From an uncultured Actinomycetes bacterium (lineage in GTDB: Bacteria; Actinomycetota; Actinomycetes; S36-B12), in contig CAJBZP010000051.1 in assembly GCA_903960135.1 (NCBI GenBank), forward strand, positions 1-56,361: DNA of 56,361 nucleotides, given 5' to 3'. Shown here one piece after another: positions 2,672 through 29,740 of the stretch. Numbering within the stretch: the stretch's first letter is position 1; each line of letters starts with the position of its first letter. Under the pieces are notes generated by a model, which was not told the origin of the DNA, searched no databases, and saw nothing but the letters and a program-made list of their open reading frames with translations. Made by a program: the position numbers and the translations under genes.

Positions 2672-2769
2672 CAGGCTGTAGGCAGCCTCGATTTGGTTGA
2701 AGGGACTGGTGGGATCCCCTGGGCGTTGGCCCAGGTTTCCGATGGTCCCGCTACCGAAAGGCCAAACCC
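2672..2769 (+). ncRNA. Structured 5' leader RNA upstream of the FAD oxidase (candidate riboswitch, family not recognised)
   Basis: Four helices can be paired by eye. AGGCTG (2673-2678) pairs with CAGCCT (2683-2688) around a TAGG loop. TTTGG (2692-2696) pairs with CCAAA (2762-2766), with two flanking G·U pairs. GGGAC (2702-2706) pairs with GTCCC (2745-2749). CCTGGGC (2718-2724) pairs with GCCCAGG (2729-2735) around GTTG. GGGA (2711-2714) can also pair with TTCC (2737-2740), giving a long arm with an asymmetric unpaired segment (2750-2759). The likely Shine-Dalgarno GAAAGG (2756-2761) and the GTG start at 2770 sit at the 3' edge of the outer helix, as in translation-controlling riboswitches. 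I compared it from memory with guanidine-I, ZTP, glycine, SAM and glutamine aptamers and found no match. Function is inference. Confidence 0.5.
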
Positions 2770-4185
2770 GTGTTCGTCGACACGCAGACTGAAACCTCGA
2801 TGAGGTCACTGGCGAATGTCCGCCATGAAGTTTTTTGGCTTGATGATCCGACGCGCCCGGTGGCGCGGCCGCCATTGCAGGCGCATATCACCGCCGACCT
2901 TTGTGTCGTTGGCGGCGGTTTTAGCGGTCTTTGGACGTCGGTGCTTGCCAAACAGCAGCATCCTGACTGGCGGGTGGTCCTACTCGAAGGGGATCAGGTC
3001 GCCAGTGGCGCAACGGGCCGCAACGGTGGATTCTGCGCGGCCTCCCTTACCCACGGGCTGGCAAATGGGATGAGCCGGTGGCCCGGTGAGATGCCGATCC
3101 TGCTGCAATTGGGCCGGGAAAACCTGGACGCGATTGAGGTTTTCGTTGCCGATCACGGGATCGACTGCGAGTTTGTTCGATCCGGGGATTTAGCGATTGC
3201 AACCGAGGCATACCAAGTCGCAGATCTCATTGAGCACTGCGAGGCGGGTAACGCACTAGGGCTGTCGCTGGAGTTCCTAGATGAGGAGTCCTTGAAAAGT
3301 CGCGTAGATTCACCCACCTACCTTGCCGGGTTATTCGACGGGGCCGGGACCGCGATGGTGAATCCGGCGCGATTGGCTTGGGGTTTGGCGCGGGTTGCGA
3401 CTGACTTGGGCGTCGAAATCCATGAACACTCGCCGGTATCGACCATGTCGGACAAATTGGCAGCCGTCAGTGTCTTCACGATTTCGGGGAGTGTGGCTGC
3501 TTCGAGAGTGGCGCTTGCAACTAACGCGTATCCGCCGCTATTGCGTCGTATCAGCAACTACGTGGTTCCCGTCTATGACTATGTTCTGATGTCGGAGCCG
3601 CTAAGAGGCGAGCAGCGCGCATTAGTTGGATGGGATGGTCGCGAAGGATTGTCCGACAGTGGGAATCAATTTCACTACTACCGAATAACCGAAGAGGGAC
3701 GAATTCTGTGGGGCGGCTATGACGCGATTTATCACAGCGGTAACGGTTTTGGTAAGGAGCACGAGGTTGATGATGCCTCCTTCCAGCGGTTGGCCGCGCA
3801 CTTCTTCCAGACTTTCCCGCAATTAGCTGGCCTTGAGTTCACCCATGCATGGGGCGGGGCAATTGACACCTGCTCGCGCTTTAGTGCTTTTTGGGGTAAT
3901 GCGCATGGCGGTAAGACCGTCTACGTAACCGGATACACCGGGTTAGGCGTTGGCGCATCTAGGTTCGGTGCGCAGGTCATGCTCGACCTATTGGCGGGGC
4001 GAGAAACGGCGCGGACGAAATTGCAGATGGTAAGGCGGAAACCTAAGCCGTTCCCGCCAGAGCCGCTTCGGTCCATCGGTATTGATTGGACAACTAGGGC
4101 ACTGAAGTCGGCCGACCGAAACTTCGGACGCCGGAATTTGTGGCTGCGCACATTGGATCGGCTTGGGTTGGGGTTCGACTCGTAA
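2770..4185 (+). CDS. FAD-dependent amine/amino-acid oxidoreductase (DAO family, PuuB-like)
   Basis: A 471-residue flavoprotein of the D-amino-acid-oxidase fold. The dinucleotide-binding motif is DLCVVGGGFSGLW (about residues 41-53). The conserved GATGRNGGF follows near residue 82, and the C-terminal FAD contact YVTGYTGLGVG near residue 385. The family includes gamma-glutamylputrescine oxidase (PuuB) and glycine/sarcosine oxidases, which release an aldehyde or keto acid, ammonia and hydrogen peroxide. The neighbouring transporter, ureohydrolase and GABA genes point to polyamine or guanidino substrates, but specificity is inferred. The GTG at 2770 has GAAAGG about eight bases upstream; an ATG at 2800 is the alternative. 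The folded leader before it suggests post-transcriptional control. Confidence 0.82.
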   Translation: MFVDTQTETSMRSLANVRHEVFWLDDPTRPVARPPLQAHITADLCVVGGGFSGLWTSVLAKQQHPDWRVVLLEGDQVASGATGRNGGFCAASLTHGLANGMSRWPGEMPILLQLGRENLDAIEVFVADHGIDCEFVRSGDLAIATEAYQVADLIEHCEAGNALGLSLEFLDEESLKSRVDSPTYLAGLFDGAGTAMVNPARLAWGLARVATDLGVEIHEHSPVSTMSDKLAAVSVFTISGSVAASRVALATNAYPPLLRRISNYVVPVYDYVLMSEPLRGEQRALVGWDGREGLSDSGNQFHYYRITEEGRILWGGYDAIYHSGNGFGKEHEVDDASFQRLAAHFFQTFPQLAGLEFTHAWGGAIDTCSRFSAFWGNAHGGKTVYVTGYTGLGVGASRFGAQVMLDLLAGRETARTKLQMVRRKPKPFPPEPLRSIGIDWTTRALKSADRNFGRRNLWLRTLDRLGLGFDS

Positions 4186-4208: not shown

Positions 4209-5234
4209 ATGACGCGCTACGGAGCACAATTTGGGCCGGATATTACCTTTCTTGGAGTGGATCGCTGTGATCTAGACGACCCGAGCTCCTATGACAGCGC
4301 TGATATCGTGATTTTGGGCGCGCCATTTGATGGCGGGACCTCTTTTCGAAGCGGCGCCCGCTTCGGCCCACAGGCAATTCGAGCAACCTGCTATCTGCCA
4401 CACGACGGTAGCCGGCCATCCCTGGCGATGAGGGTTGACGGCTTGGCCGATCTGCGAGTGGTAGACGCCGGTGACGTCGAGATGTATAGCGGTGATGCTG
4501 CCACCGCATGTGCTTCCCTGGAGGCGGTAGTTGAAAAGGTGGCCAAGGCTGGCGCTATCCCCATTATTTTGGGTGGTGATCACACCATCACTTGGCCAGA
4601 TGTGACCGGAGTGGCCCGTGCCCGCGGGTGGGGCAAGGTTGCGATCATTCATTTCGATGCGCACGCTGACACCGGCGACACCTGCTTTGGCTCACTGATC
4701 GGGCACGGCCAACCAATGCGCAGACTGATCGAGTCCGGGGCGGCTCGTGGCGATCGGTTCTTGCAGATCGGGCTTCGAGGTTATTGGCCCGAGCCGGAAA
4801 CCTTGCAATGGATGGCCGAGCAGGGTATGCGATCGTATGAAATGACTGAGATTGTCGAACGCGGGCTAGGCGAGGTCTTGACCGAGGCTTTTGCGATTGC
4901 CCTGGATGAATGTGACGGCGTCTTCCTCAGTGTCGATATTGATGTCTGCGACCCGGGCCATGCACCTGGTACCGGCACACCAGAGCCCGGCGGTCTCACC
5001 GCGCGCGAGTTATTGGATGCGGTTCGACGTATCTGCTACGAACTGCCCGTTGTAGGCATGGACGTGGTTGAAGTTGCACCACCATTTGATCATGCCGATA
5101 TCACGGTGATGCTTGGTAACCGTGTGGTCCTGGAGGCCCTATCGGCAATCGCCCGACGCCGGCAAGATGATCGTGATGGCACGACTTGGGATCCGCGGCA
5201 GCCACTGCTCGCTGACCGAATCCCGGGGGAGTAG
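4209..5234 (+). CDS. speB: Agmatinase/arginase-family ureohydrolase
   Basis: A 341-residue member of the manganese ureohydrolase family, which removes urea from a guanidino group. The metal ligands are all present: GGDHT (near residue 122), HFDAHADTGD (near residue 149) and SVDIDVCDP (near residue 241), followed by APGTGTPEPGG. A purine-rich AGGTCAGGGG precedes the ATG. Agmatinase would give putrescine. Guanidinobutyrase, which gives GABA directly, is equally compatible with the neighbouring gabT. Family is certain; exact substrate is not. The next gene begins three bases after the stop, so the two are co-transcribed. Confidence 0.88.
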   Translation: MTRYGAQFGPDITFLGVDRCDLDDPSSYDSADIVILGAPFDGGTSFRSGARFGPQAIRATCYLPHDGSRPSLAMRVDGLADLRVVDAGDVEMYSGDAATACASLEAVVEKVAKAGAIPIILGGDHTITWPDVTGVARARGWGKVAIIHFDAHADTGDTCFGSLIGHGQPMRRLIESGAARGDRFLQIGLRGYWPEPETLQWMAEQGMRSYEMTEIVERGLGEVLTEAFAIALDECDGVFLSVDIDVCDPGHAPGTGTPEPGGLTARELLDAVRRICYELPVVGMDVVEVAPPFDHADITVMLGNRVVLEALSAIARRRQDDRDGTTWDPRQPLLADRIPGE

Positions 5235-5236
5235 CC

Positions 5237-6451
5237 GTGCGGGTACTCGCAGTTGGCGCTGGCGGTGTCGGCACTTCGGCAGCCCTGATAGCGAAGCGGC
5301 GAGATTTTTTCGAATTGTGGGTTTGTGCCGACTACGACATGAATCGAGCTAGTGCGCTGGCAGCCCGAGTCGGCGATCCGCGATTTGTGGCGGCGCAAAT
5401 TGACGCGGCAAATGCCGCAGAGATCACCGAACTGTGTCAGGCTCACGGAATCACCCACGTGCTCAACGTCATTGATCCGCGGTACGTTATGCCGATTTTC
5501 GACGGCGCCTTTGCCGCCGGTGCTAATTACCTCGATACCGCAATGAGTCTTTCGCGCCCGCATCTGACCCTGCCCCACGAGCAGGTAGGTGTCTTGCTCG
5601 GCGCTGAGCAGTTTGCAAAGGAACCGCAGTGGCAAGAGGCTGGACTCTTGGCCTTGTGCGGAGTGGGGGTGGAGCCGGGGCTCTCGGATATTTTCGCGAG
5701 ATATGCCGCAGATCACCTGTTTAGCGAAATCGATGAGATCGGCATCCGTGATGGTGCGAATTTGACGGTCTCGGGCTACGACTTCGCGCCGACGTTTTCA
5801 ATCTGGACCACGATCGAGGAGTGCCTCAATCCACCGGTGATCTGGGAGGCGGGTCGGGGCTGGTATACCACCGCCCCGTTCAGCGAACCTGAGATCTTTG
5901 ATTTCCCCGAAGGTATCGGGCCGGTTGAATGTGTCAACGTAGAGCACGAGGAAGTCCTCTTGGTGCCGCGATGGATCAAGTGCAAACGGGTCACTTTTAA
6001 GTATGGTCTCGGCGATGAGTTCATCGAGGTGCTAAAGACTTTGCATAAGCTGGGGCTTGACAGCACGACTCCGGTTAGCGTTCGAGGGGTCATGGTGAGT
6101 CCGCGGGATCTAGTCTCGGCTGCATTGCCAGACCCGGCGACTCTAGGTGACAAAATGACAGGCAAGACTTGTGCCGGCACTTGGGTTACGGGCGCCGGAA
6201 ACATGGGTGAACCGAAATCGGTTTACCTCTACCACGTCCTCGACAATGACTGGTCGATGCGTGAGTACGGGGTGCAGGCGGTGGTTTGGCAAACCGCCAT
6301 GAATCCGGTAATAGCCCTTGAGTTACTCGCGTCAAAGGCGTGGCAAGGCACTGGAGTATTAGGCCCGGAGGCCTTTGATGCCGTGCCGTTCTTGGAGTTA
6401 ATGGATTCTGGCTACGGCCAAAAATATGGGCTCCGGGTCGATAACCAGTAA
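5237..6451 (+). CDS. Saccharopine dehydrogenase-family NAD(P)-dependent enzyme
   Basis: A 404-residue protein opening with a Rossmann fingerprint, VLAVGAGGVGTSAA (residues 3-16), followed by the saccharopine-dehydrogenase C-terminal domain. Relatives include saccharopine dehydrogenase, carboxynorspermidine dehydrogenase and homospermidine-synthase-like enzymes, which make or break C-N bonds between an amine and a keto acid or aldehyde. Next to a polyamine importer and a ureohydrolase, a role in polyamine or lysine/aminoaldehyde conversion is plausible but unproven. The GTG start lies two bases after the ureohydrolase stop region and follows a GGGGAG ribosome site. Its stop codon abuts the stop of the convergent gabT with no spacer. 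Confidence 0.75.
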   Translation: MRVLAVGAGGVGTSAALIAKRRDFFELWVCADYDMNRASALAARVGDPRFVAAQIDAANAAEITELCQAHGITHVLNVIDPRYVMPIFDGAFAAGANYLDTAMSLSRPHLTLPHEQVGVLLGAEQFAKEPQWQEAGLLALCGVGVEPGLSDIFARYAADHLFSEIDEIGIRDGANLTVSGYDFAPTFSIWTTIEECLNPPVIWEAGRGWYTTAPFSEPEIFDFPEGIGPVECVNVEHEEVLLVPRWIKCKRVTFKYGLGDEFIEVLKTLHKLGLDSTTPVSVRGVMVSPRDLVSAALPDPATLGDKMTGKTCAGTWVTGAGNMGEPKSVYLYHVLDNDWSMREYGVQAVVWQTAMNPVIALELLASKAWQGTGVLGPEAFDAVPFLELMDSGYGQKYGLRVDNQ

Positions 6452-27320: not shown

Positions 27321-27424
27321 CAGCAGCGGCTGTTTAACGCCGGTGGCTTTAAGCCGGCGACAACTAAAGAACGGCACACCAGTACACACATCCGGGGCGC
27401 TCGCGCACGCGTAACGCCTGGAGT

Positions 27425-27488
27425 CGGTCCTCGGTAGTGACCTCCGGGAGTTTTCCCGTGGGCCTCGATCGAAGACCGCGTCTCCCGG
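27425..27488 (+). ncRNA. Structured pnp leader (Actino-pnp-like RNA)
   Basis: Located between rpsO and pnp. CGGTC (27425-27429) pairs with GACCG (27474-27478), and CGGG (27445-27448) pairs with CCCG (27455-27458). CCGGGAG (27444-27450) is also perfectly complementary to CTCCCGG (27482-27488), so a pseudoknot or mutually exclusive fold is possible. The position agrees with the Actino-pnp motif known upstream of actinobacterial exoribonuclease genes. The identification is from memory of that motif, not a search. Confidence 0.55.
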
Positions 27489-27532
27489 AAACAATGCCGC
27501 GCGCGCCCCTGTCACAGAAACAGGAGGCACCC

Positions 27533-29740
27533 GTGGAGGGTTCCCAGATTGCAACAGCAAAGGCCGTTATCGATAACGGCTCGTTCGGTACACGCACGAT
27601 CACTTTCGAAACCGGTCGCTTGGCACGCCAAGCCGCTGGTTCAGTAGCTATCTACCTCGATGAGGAGACGATGCTGCTCAGCGCCACAACGGCCGGTAAG
27701 TCGCCGAAGGATCAATTTGATTTCTTCCCGCTGACCGTTGACGTTGAAGAGCGCATGTATTCCCTTGGTCGGATTCCAGGCTCGTTCTTCCGCCGCGAAG
27801 GCCGCCCGAGTGAAGACGCCATTTTGACCTGCCGGTTGATCGACCGCCCGCTGCGCCCAACGTTCATTAAGGGACTGCGCAATGAGGTTCAGGTCGTCAT
27901 CACCGTAATGGCGCTTAATCCAAATGATCTCTACGACGTGGTTGCCATCAACGGCGCTTCGGCGTCAACCCAGTTATCCGGCCTGCCATTTAGTGGGCCG
28001 ATCGGTGGGGTTCGCGTTGCACTCATCGGTGGTCAGTGGGTTGGGTTCCCGACCCATGAGCAGTTGACCGAAGCGGTCTTCGACATGGTCGTCGCCGGTC
28101 GAATTGCCGGTGATGATGTCGCGATCATGATGGTCGAGGCTGAGGCAACCGATCGCACGATCGAACTGATCGCCGGGGGGGCCACCGCGCCAACCGAGGC
28201 CGTCGTGGCCCAGGGTCTAGAGGCGGCAAAGCCGTTCATTCGGGCCCTTTGCGAAGCGCAGATCACTCTTGCCAAGGCGGCGGCCAAGCCCACGGTTGAC
28301 TTCCCGATCTTCCTTGATTATCAAAGTGATGCCTATGAGGCGGTTGACAAGAGTGCCAATGAATCTGTACGAAAGGCGTTGACCATAGTCAGCAAGGCAG
28401 AGCGAGAAGATCGACTTGATGAGATCAAGGGCGAGGTTCTCGCCGAACTCGGTGGCGCGTTCGTTGGCCGCGAGAAGGAGTTGTCGGCGGCGCTTCGTTC
28501 GGTCACCAAATCATGTGTGCGCGACCGCGTACTTCGTGACAAGATTCGAATTGACGGGCGCGGCTTGACCGACATCCGAACCCTTTCGGCCGAGGTTCAG
28601 GTTCTGCCTCGAGTTCATGGGTCAGCGTTGTTCGAGCGAGGCGAGACCCAGATTCTTGGGGTTACCACCTTGAATATGTTGCGCATGGAGCAGCAACTCG
28701 ACACTTTGAACCCTGAGAATCGCAAGCGGTACATGCATAACTACAACTTCCCGCCGTACTCAACAGGGGAGACCGGTCGCGTTGGTTCACCCAAGCGACG
28801 CGAAATCGGTCACGGGGCACTTGCTGAGCGGGCATTGATCCCTGTGCTCCCATCGCGTTCGGAGTTCCCGTACGCAATTCGCCAGGTCTCCGAGGCCCTC
28901 GGGTCCAATGGTTCGACTTCAATGGGCTCGGTATGCGCCTCAACGATGTCGCTGTTGAACGCAGGGGTGCCACTTCGGGCTCCGGTAGCTGGAATTGCAA
29001 TGGGATTGATCTCCGGTGAGGTAGATGGCAAGACGGAGTACGTCGCATTGACGGACATCCTGGGAGCCGAGGATGCGTTTGGTGACATGGACTTCAAAGT
29101 CGCCGGCACCAAGGATTTCGTCACGGCGCTGCAACTTGATACCAAGCTGGATGGCATTCCAGCTTCGGTTCTGGCAGGGGCATTGACTCAGGCGCACAAT
29201 GCGCGCTTGGCAATTCTTGAGGTGATGAATGAAGCCATTGACGCACCTGATGAGATGGCTGCTACCGCACCGCGGGTGATCTCGATCAAGATCCCGGTCG
29301 ACAAGATTGGTGAGGTGATCGGCCCGAAGGGCAAGATCATCAATCAGATCCAAGAGGAAACCGGCGCAGATATCTCAATTGAGGACGATGGCACGATCTA
29401 CATCGGCGCGACCGATGGCCCATCAGCCGAAGCCGCCCGCTCGCAGATCAATCAAATCGCCAACCCGACCATGCCTGAGGTTGGTGAGCGCTACCTCGGA
29501 ACGGTGGTAAAGACTGCTGCCTTTGGTGCTTTCATCTCCCTAGTCCCTGGCAAGGACGGCCTTCTGCACATCTCCGAGGTTAAGAAACTGGCCGGTGGCA
29601 AGCGCATTGACAGCGTTGATGATGTGCTAAAAGTCGGTGACAAAATCCAAGTGGAGATCAAGGAGATCGATCCACGCGGCAAGTTGTCCCTTGTGCCGGT
29701 CCTCGAAGAGGGCGCCGCGAAAGCAGGTAATGAGGGCTAG
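27533..29740 (+). CDS. pnp: Polyribonucleotide nucleotidyltransferase
   Basis: A 3'-5' phosphorolytic exoribonuclease that forms a trimeric ring, 735 residues. It has two RNase PH domains. The first begins near residue 12 and has [10 protein letters not shown]. The second is catalytic, with [13 protein letters not shown] near residue 365 and [12 protein letters not shown] helical linker separates them. A KH domain ([16 protein letters not shown], near residue 588) and an S1 domain ([16 protein letters not shown], near residue 660) end the protein. The GTG at 27533 has a strong CAGGAGG. The open frame upstream runs through the structured leader and should not be used. Confidence 0.96.

Follow-up and report, generated by a model that had tools for sequence, protein, structure and literature searches.

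The gene of an FAD-dependent oxidase at positions 2770-4185 (+) of the window, the 56,361-nucleotide stretch of DNA that was analysed, is preceded by a structured leader, which is rather likely to represent a family of cis-regulatory RNAs absent from Rfam and acting at the translation of the oxidase. Leaders of this family share a core and a hairpin, P2; within one order, about 65 genomes from at least 14 genera and 3 families have this pair. The riboswitch-like leader of the original prediction is real and conserved, but the prediction missed its main feature, the core at 2699-2714. The leader has withstood the comparison with its homologues and with Rfam: it is conserved, P2 covaries and, as the prediction had claimed for several known aptamer families, the Rfam covariance models fit neither the window leader nor those of representative relatives.

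All the elements of the leader are on the (+) strand. It contains the P0 hairpin (AGGCTG-TAGG-CAGCCT, 2673-2688), the 6-bp stem of which is formed by the arms 2673-2678 and 2683-2688. The genus-conserved stretch CGATTTGGTT (2689-2698), with its UUUGGU part at 2692-2697, leads into the invariant core GAAGGGACTGGTGGGA (2699-2714). The family consensus of the core is GARGGGAYTGGTGGGA, spelled GARGGGAYUGGUGGGA. The P2 hairpin (CCTGGGC-GTTG-GCCCAGG, 2718-2735) consists of the arms CCTGGGC (2718-2724) and GCCCAGG (2729-2735), and is followed by the 3' strand UUCCGAUGGUCCC (2737-2749), the P1 arm, which is the partner of the core in the genus of the window. The segment CTACCGAAAG is located at 2751-2760, the Shine-Dalgarno (SD) sequence GAAAGG, invariant in 8 of 8 genus members, at 2756-2761, and the GTG start codon at 2770. 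Directly 5' of the start codon is a CCC (2767-2769), a possible anti-core. A putative -10 box, TACGGT (2651-2656), is a candidate for the leader promoter; TANNNT is similarly placed in several genus members. Counterparts of P0 with an altered sequence (GGCTG..CAGCC, GGCCTC..GAGGCC) are present in most of the genus, one of them degenerate (L002), and no common counterpart was seen in the family outside the genus of the window.

The genes around the leader agree with the polyamine context of the original prediction: the oxidase is found together with a ureohydrolase, a PotABC-like transporter and a GABA aminotransferase. The transporter genes, upstream of the leader (25-2638, +; potA is cut by the window edge), encode a polyamine-type ABC transporter; their best NCBIfam models are PotA, PotB and PotC, all below the cutoffs. 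The oxidase (DAO, PF01266) has 471 amino acids and no close solved relative in a structure search. The next gene (4209-5234, +) encodes a ureohydrolase of the agmatinase/guanidinobutyrase family (PF00491; TIGR01230 above its cutoff), the nearest PDB relatives of which are proclavaminate amidinohydrolase and guanidinobutyrase. It is followed by the gene of a saccharopine-dehydrogenase-like protein (5237-6451, +), for which the nearest NCBIfam model is carboxynorspermidine synthase, below cutoff. The aminotransferase of the cluster passes the NCBIfam cutoff for GABA transaminase. The gene order potA-potB-potC-leader-oxidase-ureohydrolase-(saccharopine-dehydrogenase-like)-gabT is widespread. The oxidase is a probable enzyme of polyamine breakdown, and a pathway in which a polyamine or agmatine is oxidised to an aldehyde and converted through GABA or guanidinobutyrate to succinate would fit these genes. 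Strains of acI have been reported to share spermidine/putrescine ABC transporters (PMC5301498).

A DNA search of near relatives retrieved the same leader from 7 further genomes of the genus, with 81-84% identity, and a trace of it from one more distant genus. The unchanging block GAAGGGACTGGTGGGA emerged from the alignment of the genus leaders. The exact pattern GARGGGAYTGGTGGGA occurs in 47 of the 166 genomes of the order, versus about 2 for a reversed-pattern control. These 47 genomes, one member found only by the covariance model (G011, L161, with a one-base change) and 17 Planktophila members, 5 of them found by the covariance model and 12 by protein homology, make up the total of about 65. 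The order of the hosts is probably Nanopelagicales. Among the pattern-found leaders, the search itself imposes part of the invariance of all 16 nucleotides; to check for this bias, oxidase orthologues were gathered by protein similarity and their upstream DNA was then retrieved. In this unbiased set, 13 nucleotides of the core, GGGACTGGTGGGA, are present in all 12 additional Planktophila-type upstream regions whose sequence is readable (a thirteenth, masked at the place of the core, was left out), about 140-205 nt before the oxidase. Much of the remaining leader has diverged in these 12, while the core is kept.

The gene 3' of the core is the same FAD oxidase wherever the downstream frame is available; two copies stop at contig edges. 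Changes among the neighbouring genes do not part the leader from the oxidase: the two remain together in loci with a divergent ureohydrolase (L138, L139), with an aldehyde dehydrogenase as the upstream gene (L195-L199), and without any other gene of the cluster next to them (L140). It is absent from closely related genera in which the oxidase starts directly after potC, and the element is therefore dispensable. A second oxidase paralogue, about 50% identical, is found without a core leader in many of these genomes (G000:C27:10303-11652; similar loci L265-L272). A wider spread in the class or phylum was rejected, as matches of the covariance model and of the pattern beyond the order do not exceed chance, and those inspected lie mostly in coding sequence. 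In another family of actinobacteria, one exact core match, AAGGGACTGGTGGGA, precedes an arginine deiminase gene by about 90 nt (L171/L208, G324). The gene is suggestive, but the number of such matches is that expected by chance, and the match was not used as evidence.

P2 is present in nearly all leaders, after the core, and in short leaders its loop often has the form C-GNUCG-G. RNAalifold found no consensus in raw MAFFT alignments of whole leaders, and P2 was therefore aligned on 20 leaders of one geometry, all from other genera. In these 20 relatives the eight pairs of P2 show 35 double changes with 95% of cells paired, and the covariation score is 0.747, compared with 0.32 +/- 0.04 after shuffling and at most 0.11 for slid partners. 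Among eight homologues of the window's genus, three pairs are changed on both sides and 96% of cells are paired.

The original prediction described P2 as the innermost of three nested helices of a long arm. The named segments, i.e. the hairpin, the three helices, the tail segment and the GTG, are all in place, except that the outer helix, said to end four bases before the GTG, has its CCAAA arm three bases before it. The three helices fared differently when the eight homologues of the genus were compared. The inner one is supported by the double changes. The middle one, GGGAC (2702-2706) with GTCCC (2745-2749), is kept, with 97% of cells paired; as its 5' strand, which belongs to the core, is constant, the only variation is one-sided, from one standard pair to another. 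The outer one, TTTGG (2692-2696) with CCAAA (2762-2766), is not conserved and was rejected: 80% of cells are paired, there is no double change, and the helix is broken in several species. The lowest-energy fold of the window leader pairs UUUGGU (2692-2697) with ACCGAA (2753-2758), which covers part of the SD sequence. This helix is kept in 85% of cells among the eight genus members, likewise without double changes. Judging from the predicted fold, sequestration of the SD sequence in the window is probably due to UUUGGU:ACCGAA and not to UUUGG:CCAAA.

Folding as a whole is moderately above chance for the 106-nt window leader (z of -2.9 versus dinucleotide shuffles); z is -1.6 for the 161-nt stretch 2640-2800 and ranges from -0.5 to -4.4 across the leaders of eight genus members. 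Complementarity between core and tail, taken over the family, does not exceed that of shuffled tails (mean z -0.31). The long arm is consequently a feature of the genus, and the core must be kept for its sequence, as an aptamer or a protein site; pairing with the tail was rejected as the general reason for the invariance of the core.

The region of the start codon has a feature of its own. Of 41 leaders, 28 have a CCC no more than 8 nt from the start codon, as opposed to 2 of 65 other SD-bearing genes of the same loci and to 8.4 +/- 2.5 expected from shuffled tails. Several leaders have no CCC near the start. The CCC is complementary to the GGGA tracts of the core, and its potential to pair with them suggests a translational switch. 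When the core is forced to be unpaired, the mean predicted accessibility of the start region rises from 0.36 to 0.45 (p 0.0003 versus base and p 0.013 versus masking of other windows, all p-values being optimistic as the sequences are phylogenetically related). The predicted gain is strong in some lineages (0.33 to 0.66 in L045, 0.22 to 0.56 in L131). Masking the core of the window leader has a small effect, from 0.38 to 0.41, and masking the 16 nt that precede it increases the predicted accessibility of the ribosome-binding site from 0.38 to 0.55. In 20 of 44 leaders a TANNNT ends at a distance of 14-34 nt 5' of the core, versus 10.0 +/- 2.6 in shuffles, and these promoter-like boxes suggest that the core is inside the 5' UTR. 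No terminator was noticed in the leaders by eye.

The following mechanism can be put forward. The oxidase gene would open an operon for the breakdown of a polyamine or a guanidino compound, and the segment in front of it would be the 5' leader of this operon. In the resting state, translation would be lowered by pairing of the GGGA tracts of the core with the SD/start region; in the genus of the window, the flanking UUUGGU would pair with this region instead. The core and P2 would be the sensing part of the translational switch: a bound signal would hold them in another fold, by which the start region is freed. The signal may be a small molecule, which would make the leader a riboswitch, or, less likely, an RNA-binding protein. 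As judged from sequence, the riboswitch nature of the leader is plausible. Because the gene is catabolic, an ON switch answering a substrate of the pathway is the most likely logic, and putrescine, spermidine, agmatine or a guanidino acid are candidate substrates. A more specific proposal is tentative: the leader could be a new riboswitch class, an ON switch whose compact core-plus-hairpin aptamer for a polyamine or guanidino compound opens translation of the oxidase, the same oxidase being led by unrelated RNA leaders in related lineages, as if sensors had been swapped.

Other explanations of the conserved leader differ in what they make of the core. It might be the site of a regulatory RNA-binding protein, presented by P2, in which case the leader would be a protein-controlled translational operator and no riboswitch. 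A short invariant sequence combined with a hairpin of variable stem and conserved loop (often C-GNUCG-G) is typical also of protein sites, the conservation of the core goes beyond what tail pairing explains, and a lineage-specific protein could account for the restriction to one order. We nevertheless consider such an operator unlikely, as the genes compared include no candidate regulator that is regularly next to the leader, and the Planktophila-type core sits in a multi-helix leader of about 230 nt, larger than a usual protein site. It is very unlikely that the core serves an upstream ORF as ribosome-binding site, with GAAGGGA as the SD sequence and GTG GGA as the start, the product being an arrest or attenuation peptide MGRR..R[SP]. 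Although AAGGGA is at a plausible distance from the GTG, and several of the predicted peptides are arginine-rich and alike (MGRRGGRSR, MGRRDGRSR, MGKSGARSG), the ORF varies from 6 to about 60 codons, occurs in all three frames relative to the oxidase and has early stops in L005 and L007. The base-pair covariation of P2 and the GGA codon, unchanged also in the 12 homology-found leaders, argue in the same direction, and a leader-peptide attenuator was rejected because frame, length and stop of the upstream ORF are not conserved.

The two remaining explanations leave the RNA structure without a function. A DNA operator or promoter-proximal site of a transcription factor, with an incidental hairpin, would agree with a strongly conserved non-coding stretch near a promoter-like box. 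This stretch, however, lacks palindromic symmetry, the covariation of P2 is that of an RNA stem, and the promoter-like boxes are upstream of the core, often by 14-34 nt and farther in Planktophila-type leaders, all of which makes the operator highly improbable. That the leader is an ordinary untranslated one, structured by chance and without regulation, is scarcely credible: the invariant core in at least 14 genera, the covariation and the gene-specific association oppose it, even though the fold z-scores are only moderate (-1.6; -0.5 to -4.4) and sister genera are without any leader. The preferred explanation remains an RNA element that controls the translation of the oxidase.

The Planktophila leaders are about 230 nt long. 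By eye and by minimum-free-energy folding, ACUGGUG of the core has, in most Planktophila members, a downstream complement, CACCAGU, after which comes a GUGAG/CUCAC hairpin; L254 and L255 depart from this arrangement. By the same means, some of these leaders show potential pairing between bases 5' of the core and the region of the start codon. Most Planktophila-type leaders (L195-L199, L253, L256-L264) have an apparent second, shorter unit, CAAGGGG-hairpin-CCGAUUGG, about 60 nt upstream of the core, possibly in a tandem arrangement with the core unit.

Orthologues of the oxidase are also found behind other leaders. A different conserved leader (L065, L075, L085, L089 and, in family f7, L232-L240) consists of a long variable hairpin and then a stem enclosing UCCGGAGGACCCGGG, e.g. 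GGCCGUAUCG-UCCGGAGGACCCGGGG-CGGCC. When the class was scanned with a narrow pattern of this leader, matches came only from the order of the core, and L065 and L089 have no Rfam gathering match. A third, unrelated short leader is located just upstream of the oxidase in Chloroflexi (L020, L023, L027, L029, L034, L048, L063, L078). It has the form UAUGA, a hairpin of variable sequence, and CCGCGA..CUGGAGA before the start codon; many of these leaders have a TACACT-like -10 box slightly upstream, and those scanned gave no Rfam gathering match. With two more structured leaders, both unrelated, before its orthologues, the oxidase gene would offer a natural experiment on the gain and replacement of RNA control.

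It has been difficult to establish convincing natural RNAs that sense polyamines, for reasons discussed in PMC10853860, and a compact uncatalogued leader on a polyamine-type oxidase of abundant freshwater actinobacteria is a directly testable candidate. No polyamine riboswitch of such form was found in the literature, the coverage of which was incomplete, so that an earlier description elsewhere is possible. Nor was any report found there of a riboswitch at this locus in acI, the authors of these genomes having searched with named Rfam models only. In an Rfam 15 scan of the window, the gathering threshold was reached only by an Actino-pnp RNA (RF01688) at 27423-27480, at the 5' end of the ORF 27437-29740. 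The window leader alone gave only chance matches at E up to 10, and the leaders of representative relatives no relevant match.

Several known systems resemble the leader in part. It shares the guanidino/ureohydrolase gene context with the guanidine-I, -II, -III and -IV riboswitches, the models of which match neither the window leader (E up to 10) nor the relatives (E up to 0.5). Leader-peptide control exists in polyamine and ornithine genes, e.g. speFL, and there, too, a structured leader is found on a polyamine-type operon; here, no upstream ORF is conserved in length, frame or stop. The spermidine riboswitch is a four-stem variant of SAM-I with a reportedly narrow distribution among Gram-positive genera (Salvail et al. 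2023, PMC10853860), and it turns off biosynthesis genes via transcription termination (PMC10853860). Both are RNA leaders tied to polyamine metabolism, but most leaders of the present family have a 16-nt core and one hairpin in place of the four stems of SAM-I, their gene is that of a catabolic oxidase, and no terminator was noticed. The SAM-I model has no match in the window, in the leader at E up to 10, or in the relatives. The translational riboswitches of the preQ1/SAM-II type, which mask the ribosome-binding site, differ in that their covariance models do not match here. They are similar in being compact elements by the SD sequence and start codon, which they expose or hide, as the present leader would by the mechanism proposed. 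Like riboswitches in general, the leader shows conservation and covariation of an RNA structure that precedes a metabolic gene and, to judge from the -10-like boxes, probably lies in its 5' UTR.
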